Source of the DNA: Mycoplasmataceae bacterium
Lineage (GTDB): Bacteria > Bacillota_I > Bacilli_A > Mycoplasmatales > Mycoplasmoidaceae
Assembly: GCA_031281575.1 (NCBI GenBank)
Contig: JAITFD010000016.1
Coordinates: forward strand, 1-52,357
Length of the DNA: 52,357 bases
Direction of reading: 5' to 3'
Shown: in pieces, positions 14,975-51,219 of the stretch
Numbering within the stretch: position 1 is the first letter of the stretch
Layout: every line of letters begins with the position of its first letter
Notes under the pieces: generated by a model
Told to the model about the DNA's origin: nothing
Database searches by the model: none
Seen by the model: the letters and a program-made list of their open reading frames with translations, nothing else
Program-made: the position numbers and the translations under genes

Positions 14975-15567
14975 TCCACAAAATTAATTTTTAAATCATG
15001 GATCTTATGATTCTTGATTAAAAACGTTGCATAACTACCAGTAAATTGGTCATGCTTTGGTGCAACCAATGAACCAGGATTTAATGCTGGTAGATTAAAC
15101 ATATTTCAATATTTAGCAACATGAGTATGGCCAGTAATAATAAAATCAATATGCTCGCATTTAATTATTTTTTTTAATCAATTAACAAACTTTTTATTTT
15201 TAATATATCATTGTTGATCGCCAAAACCAATTTCATTCCGCGAATTATCCACAAAATGGGAAAGAAAAAAAGTAATGCCATCAATTTTGAAAATACGATA
15301 AGCTTTAAAAATAAAGTTCTCAAAATCTTTTTGTGTTTTTGCTGGGCCATACTTAACAGTAAAATCATGATTACCTTTTGTTCAATAACTGAAATATTTT
15401 TTTAAAATATTGCGATTTAGTTTATGATATGGATGATTTTTATCATTAATATTAACGTCATCATAATCACCAGCATGAATTACATAATCAGCATGTTCTT
15501 GCTTGATAATTTTTAACATCTTTTTAATATTACCGTGTGTATCACCAATGACTAAAACTTTTTTCAT
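14971..15567 (-). CDS. YfcE/MJ0936-type metallophosphodiesterase
   Basis: 198 residues, single calcineurin-like phosphoesterase domain. Metal-binding motifs run in order: GDTHGN (residues 8-13), HAGDYDD near 31-37, KGNHD near 64-68, LSHF, and TGHTHVAKYW near the C-terminus, followed by NPGSLVAPK. These proteins hydrolyse phosphodiesters with Mn or Ni in vitro; the physiological substrate is usually not known. It stands as a single gene between the unrecognised basic protein and thrC, in the same direction as the Thr genes but separated by about 60 bases. Confidence 0.9.
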
Positions 15568-15629
15568 AATTCGTGTTTCTAATAGTCTTATTTAACTATA
15601 TTATAGAACAACTTTAGTGAATTGGGTTG

Positions 15630-16850
15630 TTAACGGAATTTAATCGGGTTAGCTGTGGCAATGATTACTTGGTTGATATCTTTTTGCTTGTCTTGTTTAT
15701 ATCCACCATAAGCAACAGCAGTATGGGGACAAATGTCAATATGATAACGTTGTTTAAATTCCTTTTGATTAATTTTAATTGCTTTTTGTTTACATACAAA
15801 TGTTTTAAAACAGGCGTTATATTTTTTTAAAAACGCTTTTGGTACTTGATATTGACCTTTGGTTTTTAAATCACGCATACATTTTTGGACAAAACGATCA
15901 TTGCCTGATAAATATCATAAGATTCGTTCAAAATTACTTGGATTGGCAATATCCATGGCACTGGCATCGGTCATAATCGTTTTACTTGGTTTAAAAATTC
16001 CGGTTTTGGCAAATCGCGCTAATGTATCATTATCATTAACGACGATTGCTAATTCAATGTTAAAACCAAGACATTTAGCCATATATCCAGCAAGGATATT
16101 GCCAAAGTTTCCACTTGGTACATAAAAACACGTTTTGGTATTATTAAATTGCAATACTGCATAAATATAATAAACCATTTGGGCAATAATGCGGCCAATA
16201 TTAATCGAATTAACCGCCATTAACTTATCTTGCTTATCCACAAGAAATAGTTTTTTAACTAATGCTTGTGCATCATCAAATGATCCTTTCATCGGGATCG
16301 CATGGACATTACTTTTCTTCACCCCCATCATTTGTTGACGTTGTAATTTGCTGACATTTTTATCCGGGAAATAAACAGTAATGTCAATGTTATCGCAATT
16401 TTTAAATCCATGGATTGCTGCTGGTCCAGTATCGCCGGATGTTGCACAAAAAATTTGTTTCTTTAACTTTCCTTTTTTTAAAATATAGTCACAAACTTGG
16501 CCCAGCAATGATAGTGCGTAATCTTTAAATGCTAATGTTGGACCTTGGAATAATTGTTCAATATATAATTGATTTGCTAATTTACGAACTGGACAAATTG
16601 GTGTTTTAAATTCTTGGTATGCTTTTTTAATTAATTTGCGCAAAACTGGTTTACGAATATTGGAAAATAAATAAATTACTTCAACCGCTAAATCAATGTA
16701 ATCAAGTTTGGCTCAACGTTTAATTGTTTTTTGATCAACATGTGGTAGGTTTTCAGGAACAAATAAGCCACCATCTTTTGCGGTTGATTTAATTAACACT
16801 TGATCAAAGTGATATATTTCTTTTTTGTTTCGTGTACTAAAAAACTTCAT
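15630..16850 (-). CDS. thrC: Threonine synthase
   Basis: 406 residues. A PLP-dependent fold II enzyme that converts O-phosphohomoserine to threonine and phosphate. It begins MKFFSTRNKK, as in the long-type thrC family, with DGGLFVPENLP early. The Schiff-base Lys is in GPTLAFKDYAL near residue 104. The phosphate cup is ATSGDTGPA, then PSGNFGNILAGYMAK. It is slightly shorter than the usual 430-490 residues. The start ATG is one base after the thrB stop, so the two are cotranscribed. The pair gives homoserine to threonine; no homoserine dehydrogenase or aspartokinase is in the window. Confidence 0.95.
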
Positions 16851-16851
16851 C

Positions 16852-17796
16852 TTAATAAATTACCCCTTTCGCATTAATTGAAAAAACATATTGTTTAACA
16901 TTTAAATGATGCTTTTGATAAATCTTTTTCACCGCTTGACAAATGTTCTTACTATCTTTATTGTTACAAAAGGCTGCTGTTGTTGCCCCACTTCCGCTTA
17001 AAAATGCCGCATAACTACCATGTTGATAACTTGCTTTAACAATTTCATTAAAACCCGGAATTAATTTGGCTCGATATGGTTGGTGGATTTTATCAATTAC
17101 TGATTCTTTCAATCAATGACGATGATCATTATTTAGAGCATTAATAAATAATGTTACGCGTTCAATGCTATGAACGAGATCAGCCCGCGAATATGATTGG
17201 GGTAAAATGGCACGAGCTTTAGCGGTTTTTAATTGAAAATTAATTGGACAATTAATCACGATCTTTAAATTCTTTTTATAATTTAATGGTAAATATTGAA
17301 AAGTGTTTTTTGCATCTTTAAAACACGAACAAATGCCACCATAAATACATGGAGCAACATTATCGGGATGACCTTCTAACTTTGATGCTAAATTAAATAG
17401 TTGGTCTTTGGTAATTTGCTTATTTCCCAATTTGCATGCTAAAATAATTCCACCCACAACCGCAGTCGATGATGAACCAAGGCCGCCACATAATGGAATG
17501 GCATATGATAAATCAAGGACAATTTGTTTTAAATTGATTTTTAATTTTAAATATTTCGCGGCCGTTTTAATACTTTGATAAACTAAATTTACCTCATTGG
17601 TTTCAATGATGCCTTTACCTAAACCACGAACAATAATTGTTGGTTTTTTAAGTTCAGGATTAATATATGCGACATATTTATTGTATAGCGGTAATGATAA
17701 ACCAAAAATATCAAATCCACTCCCTAAGTTAGCCGAAGTGGCTGGTACTTTACAGCATACTTTTTTAATGTCCTTTAATGCAATTAAACGGCCCAT
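16852..17796 (-). CDS. thrB: Homoserine kinase
   Basis: 314 residues, GHMP kinase fold. It phosphorylates homoserine with ATP, supplying the ThrC substrate. The N-terminus has VPATSANLGSGFDIFGLSL, the ATP-binding GHMP loop is PLCGGLGSSSTAVVGGI near residues 95-111, and the C-terminal third motif is LSGSGATTAAF. There is one UGA-Trp, near 17112. A TATAAT (minus strand 17818-17813) lies 16 bases before ATG. It is the first gene of thrB-thrC. No leader peptide was found in front of it, unlike the aromatic operons and thrS. Confidence 0.95.
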
Positions 17797-18044
17797 AATC
17801 TTGTATATGTATATTATATCTTTGAAGCTACTAAATTAAAGTTTGACAAATAATTGGCAAAATCGCATGAATTAGAATTATTCCTGAGCTTTGAAATTGG
17901 CGATTAGTGTCAAATGTTTCATTAACCGCAATTCGGTTTGCTTGTGTACTATGGATTCATCGATAAATAATTAGTAGTACTTTCGCGAACCTAAATTTAC
18001 AATAAATACATGGTAAAACATATAATAAAAGTATAATTCAGATA

Positions 18045-19043
18045 ATGGAAAAAAATAAATTACAAAGACGCACTTATACATACATCGGTTTAATCACTGG
18101 ATTAATTTTAAGTTTGATTATTTTTTTTACATTTGTTAAACAACAACCTAACACGAATAATATACAGCCGATTGTTAATTCATCGAATTATATTGGTAAT
18201 GCTGATGGTTCTGATTGAGCTGGATATACTAGTGGTAGTTTAAAAATTGAGATAATTAAGCAATCAAACGATGCAAATCACGGTACTTGCGCAATTGTCG
18301 ATGCAAGAACCAATAAATATAGTGCCAACAACTTAGCGATTCCGAATATCGTACAAATTAATACAAATTTATATGATGTTGTGCGAATTAATGCATATGC
18401 CTTTTCTGGTGTTAACAACAGCTTACTAATTGGTACATTAACGTTTCCAAGTGCATTAACAGAAATTCAAAATTATGCATTTAACGAATGCAATAAATTG
18501 ATTGGGGATTTAATTATTCCGAATAGTGTAACGACAATTGGTGATGGAGCGTTTTCTGGTTGCGATGGATTTAACGGTAGTTTAATTATTCCGAATAGTG
18601 TAACAGCAATCGGCGAACTTGCATTTGCAAATTGTGCCGGTTTCACTGGTGATTTAATCATCCCAAACCGTTTAACAAAAATTAATGAAAGCACTTTTAC
18701 TCGTTGTTCAGGTTTTACTGGTAGGTTAGTTATTCCTAGCACAGTGACAGCCATTGCTAGCAACGCATTTAGTTATGCGAAAAAAATCAGCCGAATAACA
18801 TTTACAAATAGTGCATACACAATCAATACAAATGCTTTTTATGGGCTTGATAAATTATCTAATATTGTTTTTGATGGATGAAATTCATTACCTGGCAATA
18901 AATGAGTTAACAACATTTTCAATGGTTCAAAAAATCGGAGCGGAATCGTTGAATCAATTAACGGTAGTTTAGCATCTTCTGCTATTTTAGAATATTTAAC
19001 TAGTCATAATAATTCTGACTTTCAAACTTGAACTGCTGTATAA
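18045..19043 (+). CDS. BspA-like leucine-rich-repeat surface protein
   Basis: 332 residues. One N-terminal membrane segment (residues about 13-31, YIGLITGLILSLIIFFTF) follows a short basic tail, so the body is probably outside the cell. The middle holds LRR_5 (BspA/TpLRR) repeats of 23-24 residues with consensus L-x-x-x-L-I-I-P-N-S-V-T-x-I-G-x-x-A-F-x-x-C-x-G-F-x-G. At least six units are visible between residues about 115 and 290. Two units share the 24-base identical DNA at 18509-18532 and 18581-18604, suggesting recent repeat duplication. BspA proteins in other bacteria and protists mediate host attachment. TATAAT at 18032-18037 is 7 bases from ATG, so translation is leaderless. Confidence 0.88.
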
Positions 19044-19104
19044 AATATTTTATCATCAGAAAATTTAATTTCATTTAGATAAACACAATACATGTGTGTT
19101 ATAA

Positions 19105-19206
19105 CTAAATGTTTAAAATTTCATCGGCTTCAGTAAATTCATTAATAAATTTGAATTGGTTGATGCGCGGCTTAAATTCTTTTATAAAATTGGGTATGTG
19201 CAGGCA
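19105..19206 (-). other. Open 33-codon extension in frame after the AroK-PheA stop
   Basis: After the TAA at 19207-19209 the same frame stays open for 33 codons before TAG. It includes residues such as FIKEFKPRINQFKF and EFTEADEILNI, which look like a normal helical protein tail. There is no start codon in it. It may be a remnant of a once longer C-terminus, or chance. Confidence 0.25.
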
Positions 19207-20238
19207 TTATTTCTTAATTCCAACCAAAAAACGGGTAATATTATTTTTTACATTTGCAATATTTTTTGCTAAAATGATTCGGTAATATTCTTTTGCAGCA
19301 ATTGGTGAAGCGATGACGGCTTGTTTCGGCGAATTTAAATCCCGAGCTGAAAGTGCAGTATTTAAGGATGGAAGTGTTTTTCATTGATTTTTTTTAATAT
19401 AGTTTTTGCATTGGTCTAGTGCGCTTGGATGTGATATTACCGTTTTAATCTGTGATAATTTTGTGCCTTTTAATGCACACAAAATATGATCAATTGGTTG
19501 ATTAAAGTAAAATATTGTTTTAATTTTATTCAAACAATGTTGAACTTGTTTAACTGGACCAGCAATAATATTTTCATAAGGCATAACGGCATAATCAATC
19601 CGGTTATTACGTAATGCATTGACTAATTGATCAAACGTATCATAATTTACATATTGTTGATGGGGAAAAATATGATTAGCGACAATTCATCCATATGCAC
19701 CAATTGTTCCTTGATAACCAATTTTAAATTTTTCTTGTTGTTGAATAATTAAATAAATATTCTTAACCGTGACACTTGGATCAAAACAATTATTATCCAT
19801 AATATAATTTGCGGTATTTAAATAGCATAATTTACGGGTGGCAAAGATTTTAAACAGCTTTGTTTTGCCGTTTTTTAATAGTGGCCGTTTACTGCTGTCT
19901 AGTGTTTTAATAATATTGGCACATGTTCGTTGCAAATAAAAAATTTGGCCAGAAGCTTGCATCATTTTAATATTCACGTCTTTTAAAATAATTCCGCCAC
20001 CAGTTGCCACAACTAAACCTTTTGCTTTTTTTAATTTACTTAAGATTTTTGTTTCTAAATTCCGAAAATAAGCTTCACCGTATTTGGCAAAAATTTCATT
20101 AATGCTGATTTGCGTTTTTTGGACAATTAAAGCATCAGTATCAACAAATTGATATCGCAATTTCTTCGCCAATAATTTGCCAATGGTTGTTTTACCAGCT
20201 CCCATCATTCCGGTTAAATAAATGTTAGGCTTTTTCAT
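19207..20238 (-). CDS. Fused shikimate kinase - prephenate dehydratase
   Basis: 343 residues, one uninterrupted frame with two UGA-Trp codons (19687 and 19381). Residues 1-170 are a complete AroK: P-loop GMMGAGKTT (10-18), FVDTDALI, substrate Arg in YFRNLE, VVATGGGII, and the lid DSSKRPLL. Residues about 171-343 are a complete prephenate dehydratase catalytic domain: IGYQGTIGAYG, then DYAVMPYENIIAGPV, then ASPIAAKEYY, and the catalytic ITRFLVG in the last ten residues. The ACT domain that normally follows and mediates Phe feedback is absent. The protein would thus do step 5 of the shikimate pathway and prephenate to phenylpyruvate. Its ATG lies 14 bases inside aroC. I know of no widespread AroK-PheA fusion. 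Confidence 0.93.
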
Positions 20239-21223
20239 TGGCTAAAATTAATTCATAAATTGCAATCGCTAAATATGCTTCAGCAACCACTTGTGCGCGT
20301 AATACGATGCAAGGATCGTGCCGGCCAGTAGTTGCCAATATTGTTGGCTGCATTGTTTGATAATTAACACTATGCTGCGGCTGACCAATTGATGGTGTTG
20401 GTTTAATTGCAATTTTGCAAACTAAATCCATCCCATTACTAATTCCGCCAAGGATCCCGCCCATATGATTAGTTTTAGTATAAAACTTTTTTTGTTTAAT
20501 ATAAATTGCATCATTAGTTTGTGATCCATAATGCTCAACTAATTTAAATCCATCGCCAAATTCCACACCCTTTACACCAGGAATGGCAAATAAATATTCA
20601 CTAACCTTCGCTTCAATACCACCAAAAAAATCCGAACCTAATCCCGCGATCATATGCTGGGCTTGTAAGGTAATTGTTCCGCCTAATGAATCTTTTTGCA
20701 TCTGCGCTTTTTTAATTAATTGGGCAATTTGTTTTGGCGAAGGATTAGTTGTATGATAAATTTGACTGATCTTTGAATTTATTTCAATCCCGTATTCTTG
20801 TTTTAAAACTTGTTTAATGATTGCTCCAACAAAAACAATTGGTGCAGTTAAACGTCCCGAAAACTGACCACCACCAGTTGCGACATGATGATATTTAATT
20901 AATGCTGTTCAATCAGCATGTCCTGGTCGCAAAATTGGCAGATAATCATGGGGACGAATATTTGTATTTTTAATGATCATTTTTAATGGTTTACCAGTTG
21001 TGATTAAATTATTCTTTAAACCAGTTAATACACAAACTTCATCTGCTTCTTTCCGCGGCGTTGTTAAAGGGTTTTGCCCGGGTTTACGGCGATCCATTTC
21101 CACTTTAATTGATGATCAATCTAATTTAATTCCTTTTTTTAAACCAGTAATCGTAATCCCGATTGAAGGACCATGCGATGTACCAAAAATTGTTAATTTT
21201 AAATATTTACCAATTTTATTCAT
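20225..21223 (-). CDS. aroC: Chorismate synthase
   Basis: 332 residues, somewhat shorter than the usual 350-390. It converts EPSP to chorismate with reduced FMN. Family motifs are clear: LKLTIFGTSHGPSIG at the N-terminus, MDRRKPGQN followed by TPRKEAD, LRPGHADWT, ATGGGQFSGR, GSDFFGGIEAKVSEYLFAIP and the C-terminal TTGRHDPC with ARQ-like residues. The FMN and substrate His residues in SHG and GRHDPC are present. It overlaps aroA upstream by 8 bases and the aroK-pheA start by 14 bases. The sequence style is that of clostridial-type AroC. Third gene of the minus-strand aromatic operon. Confidence 0.96.
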
Positions 21224-49160: not shown

Positions 49161-49235
49161 AGGGGTGTAGTTCAGTGGTAGAACTTCGGTCTTCAAAACC
49201 GCGTGTCGTGGGTTCAAATCCTGCCACCCCTGCCA
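49161..49235 (+). tRNA. tRNA-Trp (anticodon UCA), reads UGA as Trp
   Basis: 75 bases with CCA encoded. Acceptor AGGGGTG pairs with CACCCCT, discriminator G; A1-U72 and G73 are bacterial tRNA-Trp identity features. The anticodon loop CTTCAAA gives TCA. The size and D arm rule out selenocysteine tRNA. It explains the abundant in-frame TGA codons in this window. Confidence 0.93.
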
Positions 49236-49299
49236 TTTTAATAACTATAAATCAATTGGCAATTTAACTACTGTTTTTCACTAAAATCGAAGAAAAAGT

Positions 49300-49305
49300 T
49301 ATAAT
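49300..49305 (+). promoter_or_regulatory. -10 box of the thrS leader
   Basis: TATAAT, 9 bases before the leader ORF ATG at 49315. Confidence 0.55.
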
Positions 49306-49314
49306 AATATTAAG

Positions 49315-49377
49315 ATGAACAAAAAACAATCGTTCTACATTACAAAAATTATTGACTTATCCACAGCTACGGTTTAG
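49315..49377 (+). CDS. Candidate leader peptide of thrS
   Basis: 20 residues ending D-L-S-T-A-T-V, with Thr at 10, 17 and 19. The two last Thr codons and the stop lie on the left arm and loop of a terminator hairpin. A ribosome stalled at those codons would prevent the hairpin from forming and let transcription reach thrS. A chance ORF of this length is possible; the position after a TATAAT and over a terminator is the evidence. Confidence 0.5.
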   Translation: MNKKQSFYITKIIDLSTATV

Positions 49378-49400
49378 CCGTTAGTTTTTATATTTTTTTG
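49365..49400 (+). terminator. Intrinsic terminator between the leader ORF and thrS
   Basis: AGCTACGG pairs with CCG(T)TAGT (about eight pairs, one bulged T and one G-U), loop TTTAG, followed at once by TTTTTATATTTTTTT. It lies about 75 bases before thrS, so it is an attenuator rather than the end of a gene. Confidence 0.55.
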
Positions 49401-49470
49401 TGTTCCCAAATTCACTAAAATTGGCATGTTCCGATCCATTGCATGCTCATAACGGATCAAAATAAAAACA

Positions 49471-51219
49471 ATGAAAATAAATAAAGATTTAAATAAAGTC
49501 GCATCAATCCTTCTCGCAAAATCAATTAAAGACCTTTATCCTAACGCCATCCTTGCGGATGTTGAAGTTGGTGATCAAATGGCAAATGAAAGCGGTTTTA
49601 GCTGTTCATTTAGTTGTCCTGAACGTGTTTCAATCAACGATTTACCAAAAATTATGAAACAAATGAAAAAAAATATTGATAGTAATTTTTTGATTAAATA
49701 TGTTGCTGTTAGTCAAAACGAAGCACTAAATATTTTTAAAAACAATAAATATAAAAGTGAATTAATCAATGATGGTAAACAAAATAAAGTTGATTTAATT
49801 TATTTTGGTGACCAATATGTTGACTTATGTGAAAAAAATTCCATCGCTAAATTATCCGCCATCAAAGCTTATGAATTAAATAATGTCGGTGGTGTATATT
49901 GAAAACACTCAGCAAAAAATGAACAACTCCAATCAATTGGTGGTGTTGCGTTTGATCAATTGGCGGAACTTGCAGCCTATCGCGATGAATTAAAAGATCG
50001 TCAAGAACGTGATCACCGTTACATTAATAAAAATTTAGAACTATTTGATTTTGATTTATTAGCTGGTCAAGGGTTACCGTTCTATTTACCAAAAGGGGCA
50101 TCGGTTAAATACGAAATTGATGATTATATTCATAAATTATTAGTTCGTAACGGTTATGCTTATGTCCAAACTCCAGTGCTTGGATCAAAAGAATTATATG
50201 AAACTTCTGGTCACTGATTTCATTATCGTGAAAACATGTTTCCGGCTTTTCAAATTGATGAAGTTGTTCAAGTCTTACGACCAATGACTTGTCCGCACCA
50301 CTTGGTTGTTTATAAAATGAAACCACGTTCATACCGGGAATTACCATTCCGGGTATTTGAAGATGCCATTTTACACCGTTATGAATCATCTGGTAGTTTA
50401 ACTGGATTAGAACGTGTGCGTCAAATGCGTTTAATTGATTGTCATATGGTTTGTAGCGAAGAACAAATTAAGGATGTCGTTTCGCAACACTATGCCATCA
50501 TTAAAGAAGCTGCTGCAACATTTGGCATTACCGAATATCATTCAATCGATTTATCATTACATGATAAGAATAATAAAGAAAAATTCTTTGATGGTGAAGA
50601 AATGTGACAACGTGCCGAAAATGGTTTACGAAAAGTTTTAAAAGAAATGAACGTTAAATATCATGAAGCAGTTGGTGAAGCCGCATTCTATGGACCAAAG
50701 ATTGACATTCAAATTAAAACAGCACTTGGTCATATCATTACCGCTTTTACCATTCAATTAGATTTCTTGCTCCCTGACAAATTTAAATTAGAATATAAGG
50801 ATAAAGGTGGAGCCATTAAACGTCCAGTCTTAATTCATGCATCAGTGATTGGAACAATTGAACGATTCATGTCGATTTTGCTTGAACAAAACAAGGGCGT
50901 ATTCCCATTATGAATTGCGCCGGTTCATGTTGCCATTATTCCGGTTGATATTGAACGCCACGGTAAATTTTGTCAAACCTTAAAAAATAAATTATTAAAT
51001 GAATTGATCCGGGTTGAATACTATGATAATAATAATCGTTTAAGCCAAAACATTCGTGATGCGCAAATTTCCAAAATTCCTTATCAACTAGTTATTGGTG
51101 ATCAAGAAATTAAATCAAAGAAGTTGTCATACCGTAAATATGGCCAAAAACAAACTAAACAAACTAGTTTATCCGAATTCATTAAATTATTGCAAAAACA
51201 AATTGCGAAACGTAAATAA
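49471..51219 (+). CDS. thrS: Threonyl-tRNA synthetase with missing TGS and degenerate editing domain
   Basis: 582 residues, about 60 shorter than typical. The class II core is complete: zinc ligands in RPMTCPHH, a His in LIDCHMVC and a His in LIHASVIGTIERF, motif 2 FRVFEDAILHRYESSGS, then an anticodon-binding domain from about 475. The TGS domain is absent: the protein begins directly in the N2 editing domain. There the family H-x-x-x-H motif reads NKVASILL (both His lost), and C-R-G-P-H is C-E-K-N-S (Cys kept, His lost). Removal of mischarged Ser-tRNA-Thr is probably lost. Experimental work has shown editing-defective synthetases in several Mycoplasma species. It is preceded by a leader ORF and attenuator. 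Confidence 0.95.

Follow-up and report, generated by a model that had tools for sequence, protein, structure and literature searches.

Mollicutes are usually regarded as nearly free of regulation, and the question raised by the present locus is how one of them controls thrS, the gene for threonyl-tRNA synthetase (ThrRS). We analyzed a 52,357-nucleotide (nt) stretch of DNA from a Mycoplasmataceae bacterium (contig JAITFD010000016.1; the window). Its host genome (776 kb in 52 contigs) is that of a mollicute using code 4, in which TGA encodes Trp, and not that of an ordinary Firmicute. The original prediction for this DNA held that a threonine-containing leader peptide, encoded over a terminator, controls thrS. 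We consider it probable that the leader is a ribosome-mediated, threonine-sensing attenuator, because a sister species has the same anatomy, no T-box was detected in 36 genomes of the genus, and amino-acid-matched leaders precede the his operon and ilvE. Below, G000 is the genome from which the window comes, and G008, G013, G044, G002, G043, and G001 are genomes of the same genus.

The leader and the hairpin before thrS

Direct reading of the locus confirmed an open reading frame (ORF) of 20 codons that ends Ser-Thr-Ala-Thr-Val and starts 9 nt after a TATAAT hexamer (Table 1). Its 3' end is encoded TCC ACA GCT ACG GTT TAG, and it overlaps a hairpin and a U-rich tract located before thrS. The last two Thr codons had been assigned to the left arm of this hairpin; this is correct for ACG (49369-49371), which lies inside the arm, but ACA (49363-49365) only abuts it. 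An additional Thr codon (Thr10, ACA at 49342-49344) is found 21 nt further upstream.

Table 1. Coordinates of the thrS leader region and of related features (window positions unless a genome or contig is named).
Feature	Position	Strand	Basis or remark
tRNA-Trp(UCA) gene	49161-49235	+	80 nt upstream of leader
Sigma-70-like promoter TTCACT-17-TATAAT	49277-49305	+	10 of 12 consensus positions; TATAAT at 49300-49305
Leader ORF MNKKQSFYITKIIDLSTATV, 20 sense codons	49315-49377	+	ATG 49315; 9-nt spacer after TATAAT; TAG 49375-49377
Putative regulatory codons ACA (Thr17) GCT ACG (Thr19)	49363-49371	+	Sequence; enrichment versus short ORFs
Hairpin GCTACGG-TTTA-GCCGTTAGT	49366-49385	+	Folding; leader stop codon in its top; 15-nt block shared with G008
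U-rich tract TTTTTATATTTTTTT, candidate termination point	49385-49399	+	Sequence; C plus TTTTTTTT at equivalent G008 site
Possible second hairpin GATCC...GGATC	49433-49458	+	Sequence reading only; weak; 3' end 12 nt before thrS ATG; not conserved in G008
thrS, 582 amino acids in code 4	49471-51219	+	Translation; no close TATAAT of its own
His leader MTKTIILNLSKHHHP	G000 contig C25, operon about 15425-21134	-	Before his operon
His leader MKIVFTVVLSNVALHHSLHHITK	G008		Before his operon
His leader MKLITLTINSIHHHR	G044		Before his operon
Ile leader MRKLCNFSPSFFNIIFSCSAHNFVTKIS (Ile/Phe)	G000 contig C27, 15695-15842		Before ilvE
Ile leader MKRYLSSNIIIINLACLHVIVFARNLIK, four consecutive Ile	G044 (L233)		Before ilvE
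Short ORFs with (TA)n repeats	14395 to about 14320; G000 contigs C4 6698, C15 2981, C9 10155	- (window copy)	

We assessed the start of the leader against gene starts in G000 and G008. In both genomes, TATAAT-like hexamers concentrate 6-12 nt 5' of the start codon where the region upstream of a gene is free, and Shine-Dalgarno motifs stand mostly before operon-internal genes (58/244 vs 8/255 in G000). The leader ORF therefore resembles a normal leaderless gene start in this lineage, and its ATG looks like a start with no or a very short 5' untranslated region. The tRNA-Trp gene on the same strand just upstream could suggest that the hairpin is the terminator of that gene, with the ORF lying over it by chance. 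However, the promoter and the leaderless-type start intervene between the two, the corresponding G008 locus carries the module without the tRNA, and inspection of the locus detected no thrS promoter 3' of the hairpin, which leaves this explanation barely credible.

The expectation that thrS lacks a T-box was borne out, with no match to RF00230 in the window or across the 36 genomes of the genus, in a search of low sensitivity (2/14 of a control set above the cut-off). A relative from the same order (L025) has a T-box before thrS, scoring 72.9 bits (E 1e-14), below the gathering score of the family. No Rho was found among the 36 genomes (controls detected 9/14), and Rho-dependent control was rejected on this ground. 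Comparison of the whole window with all 4227 Rfam families returned only two tRNAs, and no match to the Thr leader of enterobacterial thrABC (RF00506). An operator of the Escherichia coli thrS type, in which ThrRS binds tRNA-Thr-like hairpins located 5' of the Shine-Dalgarno site, is unlikely, as judged only from the loop of 3-5 nt and not from a search with an operator model.

The folding energy of the hairpin is -6.1 kcal alone and -7.3 kcal with its flanks. It ranks 28th among 116 intergenic sites in G000 combining a hairpin with a U tract, so its strength by itself is unremarkable. One terminator-like site was observed in 900 bases, compared with 0.4 ± 0.7 in shuffled sequences, and the whole leader folded with no gain in stability over shuffles (z about 0; the his leaders likewise showed no excess). 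At least two Thr among the last four codons were found in 5 of 291 promoter-linked short ORFs, and two of these five are the thrS leaders of G000 and G008. What stands above chance is thus the conservation in G008 and the Thr codon content, not the strength of the hairpin.

Conservation and history of the module

The thrS locus of G008, whose ThrRS is 64% identical to that of G000, contains the same module: TATAAT, a 7-nt spacer, ATG, the leader MVLAGKNIVKLYTTTV, the block CTACGGTTTAGCCGT, and a U8 tract. Both species therefore have a short translatable ORF between promoter and thrS, with a conserved, though weak, candidate intrinsic terminator before the gene. The G008 peptide ends Thr-Thr-Thr-Val-stop, so that Thr codons near the hairpin were retained in two species while other leader residues differ. 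When the regions upstream of 30 orthologs were compared between G000 and G008, the 15-nt block CTACGGTTTAGCCGT was the longest exact word shared; the next longest is 8 nt (AT-rich words ignored for this runner-up; about 370 kb of G008 read). These findings, together with the his and ilvE leaders described below, support the claim of a Thr leader peptide over a terminator-like hairpin as the likely control of thrS.

The inverted repeat ACGG-TTTAG-CCGT is identical in the two species, loop included, and similarity extends into GTGTT beyond the U tract. Such conservation to the base would also fit binding of a regulatory protein, such as ThrRS itself, to an operator in the DNA or to a site in the RNA, with the ORF incidental. 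We regard this as very improbable: the ORF, its leaderless-type start, and its Thr codons are all retained, and there is no Rfam match at the gathering threshold. Moreover, ACGGTTTAGCCGT occurs once in G000 and once in G008, each time at thrS, and its two further matches in the genus both lie inside GAPDH coding sequences. Beyond the leader stop (49378-49420; L005), the two species share an open frame of similar sequence (FFCV...TK), in which the U tract differs by a 6-nt indel; this similarity may simply reflect nucleotide conservation.

A maximum-likelihood tree of ThrRS places G000 on one side of a six-species clade and G008 on the other (support 100/100), and the module was therefore probably ancestral to this clade. 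G002 and G043, whose thrS genes have a TATAAT of their own adjoining the ATG, probably lost it; the G001 contig ends 170 nt upstream of thrS. A search of genome contigs with ThrRS returned only distant Firmicutes, Chlamydiae, and others. In G013 (L003), a 15-codon ORF, MSIVFTTSKLYIFKK, lies within the 100 nt before thrS and after an ssb-like gene, with Thr-Thr within a small hairpin (-4.9 kcal) followed by TTTATATTTTT. It is possibly an intercistronic version of the thrS leader, but as a weak candidate it was not counted.

How the leader could control thrS

While the anatomy, its conservation, the match between codons and gene, and the lack of detectable T-box and Rho were established from sequence, we infer the transcription start, leader translation, termination, and direction of the response. 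Transcription would begin a few bases 5' of the leader ATG, and ribosomes would load at the extreme 5' end. When threonine is plentiful, the leader would be finished, leaving its last codons free of ribosomes; the hairpin would form and RNA polymerase would stop in the U tract, so that the transcript would be about 80 nt long. Under a shortage of Thr-tRNA, a ribosome would wait at ACA17 or ACG19; its leading edge, reaching about 12 nt beyond the first base of the A-site codon, would cover the hairpin arm, allowing readthrough into thrS. Such direct occlusion would require no antiterminator; a candidate alternative pairing of the classical trp or his type in G000, the 6-bp CCGTTA (49378-49383):TAACGG (49450-49455), was seen by sequence reading, and it is not conserved in G008.

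Several points weigh against this attenuator. The module was found in only two orthologs and is absent from thrS genes of this type elsewhere in the genus, and is therefore dispensable. The hairpin is weak, and gene ends in G000 and G008 show no enrichment of signals combining a hairpin with a U tract, so that genome-wide intrinsic termination is not evident, though terminators with short AT-rich stems have been described in Mycoplasma gallisepticum (PMC4245973) and M. hyopneumoniae (PMC4411717). The stop codon lies inside the hairpin loop, and a ribosome finishing the peptide would cover the hairpin too, which is a difficulty for the proposed step in which a stalled ribosome covers the arm. 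In E. coli, ribosomes that translate normally largely suppress terminators this near a stop codon (PMC4824070), so the contrast between on and off would rest on the ribosome leaving before polymerase passes.

The lack of evident intrinsic terminators at gene ends would also suit a leader peptide that controls translation, with the position of the ribosome deciding whether the hairpin near the thrS start folds. The CCGTTA:TAACGG pairing and this start-proximal hairpin exclude each other in G000, and the G008 his leader has a hairpin that ends 12 nt before hisG without a good U tract. However, conservation in G008 extends to the U tract that follows the first hairpin but not to the second thrS hairpin, and thrS there has an internal-type Shine-Dalgarno of its own 160 nt downstream. 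Considering also that the leader has no stability excess over shuffles, we judge translational control unlikely.

E. coli pyrBI senses UTP through polymerase pausing, not an amino acid. Its leader ORF overlaps the terminator, and a ribosome on it blocks the terminator directly, as proposed here for thrS (discussed in PMC4824070). A coupling sensor of this kind, in which any ribosome close behind polymerase blocks the hairpin, termination follows only when translation lags, and the Thr codons play a minor part, would suit the stop codon within the hairpin, since translating ribosomes suppress terminators arranged in this way (PMC4824070). However, the Thr codons at the hairpin were kept in two species while other residues changed, and the his and ilvE leaders are likewise matched to their amino acids. 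These observations make the coupling sensor improbable beside a threonine-sensing attenuator.

A Thr leader before thrS is already known; here it is seen in a new lineage and in a minimal form. In Streptomyces lividans TK24, a thrL-thrS leader was reported from RNA-seq (PMC8079986, Table 4), which likewise has a leaderless transcript and a short Thr-containing peptide (MKRVRPFLETTPGFVPAR) before thrS. Unlike the actinobacterial leader, which has one hairpin and no U-rich stretch, the present one has a U tract and a hairpin that overlaps both the Thr codons and the stop. Actinobacterial ilvB leaders have Ile, Val, and Leu codons overlapping the terminator hairpin, with no antiterminator described, and codon substitutions in that of S. 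coelicolor had no effect on regulation (PMC1262725); unlike thrS, ilvB belongs to a biosynthetic operon and involves other amino acids. The T-box of L025 shares with the present leader the gene, the presumed signal (uncharged tRNA-Thr), and the outcome, but it is a tRNA-binding RNA without a leader peptide.

Other leaders in the genus and minor observations

We compared the his operon loci of three genomes of the genus (G000 contig C25, L218, and L219), and all three are preceded by a promoter-linked leader ORF with runs of His. At least three His among the last four codons were found in 1 of the 291 promoter-linked short ORFs, and this one is the his leader of G000. In it, a CCCG-TAAATT-CGGG hairpin made up of the final His-Pro codons and the stop stands before CTCTTTTTC, which repeats the layout at thrS. 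Directly before hisG of G008, a GGCTC:GAGCC pairing is mutually exclusive with GCCAT:ATGGC. His leader-peptide attenuators are known in Firmicutes his operons, including those of Erysipelotrichales (PMC9413887), and His leaders of hisS and hisZ in bacilli (PMC2965389). In these leader peptides, T-boxes give way to runs of the regulatory residue, and the his leaders of the present genus belong to the same kind, whereas the his-operon leaders of Firmicutes differ from the thrS case in gene, in amino acid, and in having separate terminator and antiterminator hairpins.

The leaders before the ilvE genes of G000 and G044 contain runs of Ile codons. In G000, AGCTCACAAC, located inside the leader just past the reach of a ribosome stalled at two Ile codons, pairs at 10 of 10 positions with GTTGTGAGCT as a 10-bp antiterminator. 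GTTGTGAGCT alternatively forms a terminator hairpin (-10.3 kcal) before TCTTTTTC, immediately upstream of ilvE. An antiterminator match of such length occurred in 10 of 2000 shuffles. By its sequence, the leader before ilvE in G000 is a textbook attenuator.

The His and Ile leaders beside the thrS leader indicate that amino-acid-matched leader peptides are used repeatedly in the genus. The suggestion of a general regulatory style holds in this form, although the parallel first drawn, with aromatic leaders, was not supported. No aromatic leader was found before the aroB orthologs of two sister species, G013 and G044, and the aromatic content of the short ORFs at the window's aro operons does not stand out among short ORFs of these genomes; aromatic leaders were rejected as attenuators because ortholog support is missing and aromatic-rich short ORFs are common. 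Tentatively, and with somewhat more doubt than confidence, we propose that the genus, in which neither T-boxes nor Rho were detected, uses several leaderless attenuators based on leader peptides: Thr leaders for thrS, His leaders for the his operons, and Ile leaders for ilvE. Some of these would have a minimal one-hairpin form in which regulatory codons and stop make up the terminator arm and loop. This minimal form raises the question of whether a ribosome occluding a terminator with an in-loop stop codon can tell starvation from plenty. Since amino-acid-specific leader peptides occur in a genus without detectable T-boxes, the comparison with L025 suggests that, within one order, a leader peptide replaced the T-box as the tRNA-charging sensor of the same gene. 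No report of amino-acid leader-peptide attenuators in Mollicutes was found in the searchable literature, which largely excludes subscription journals.

The aro operons of the window are divergent, and each begins with an aromatic-containing short ORF (22753, + strand; 22674, - strand) overlapping or abutting the first gene. No leader was found at thrB, which adjoins thrC within the window. On G000 contig C23 (41793, - strand), an Arg/Lys-rich short ORF, MMSKTLITINRKRKSRK, lies over a weak hairpin and U tract before an oligopeptide permease operon; it was rejected as a leader because it is not conserved, with no counterpart observed in the other species.

Short ORFs with (TA)n repeats were also observed just after TATAAT, upstream of surface-protein genes and a restriction-like gene (Table 1), and from their sequence they look like phase-variable 5' ends. 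Surface-protein ORFs of G008 carry GT, C, or CT repeats in their N-terminal parts (contigs C5 16488, C1 18515, C29 1186, C20 8937, and C7 152), which likely reflect phase variation.
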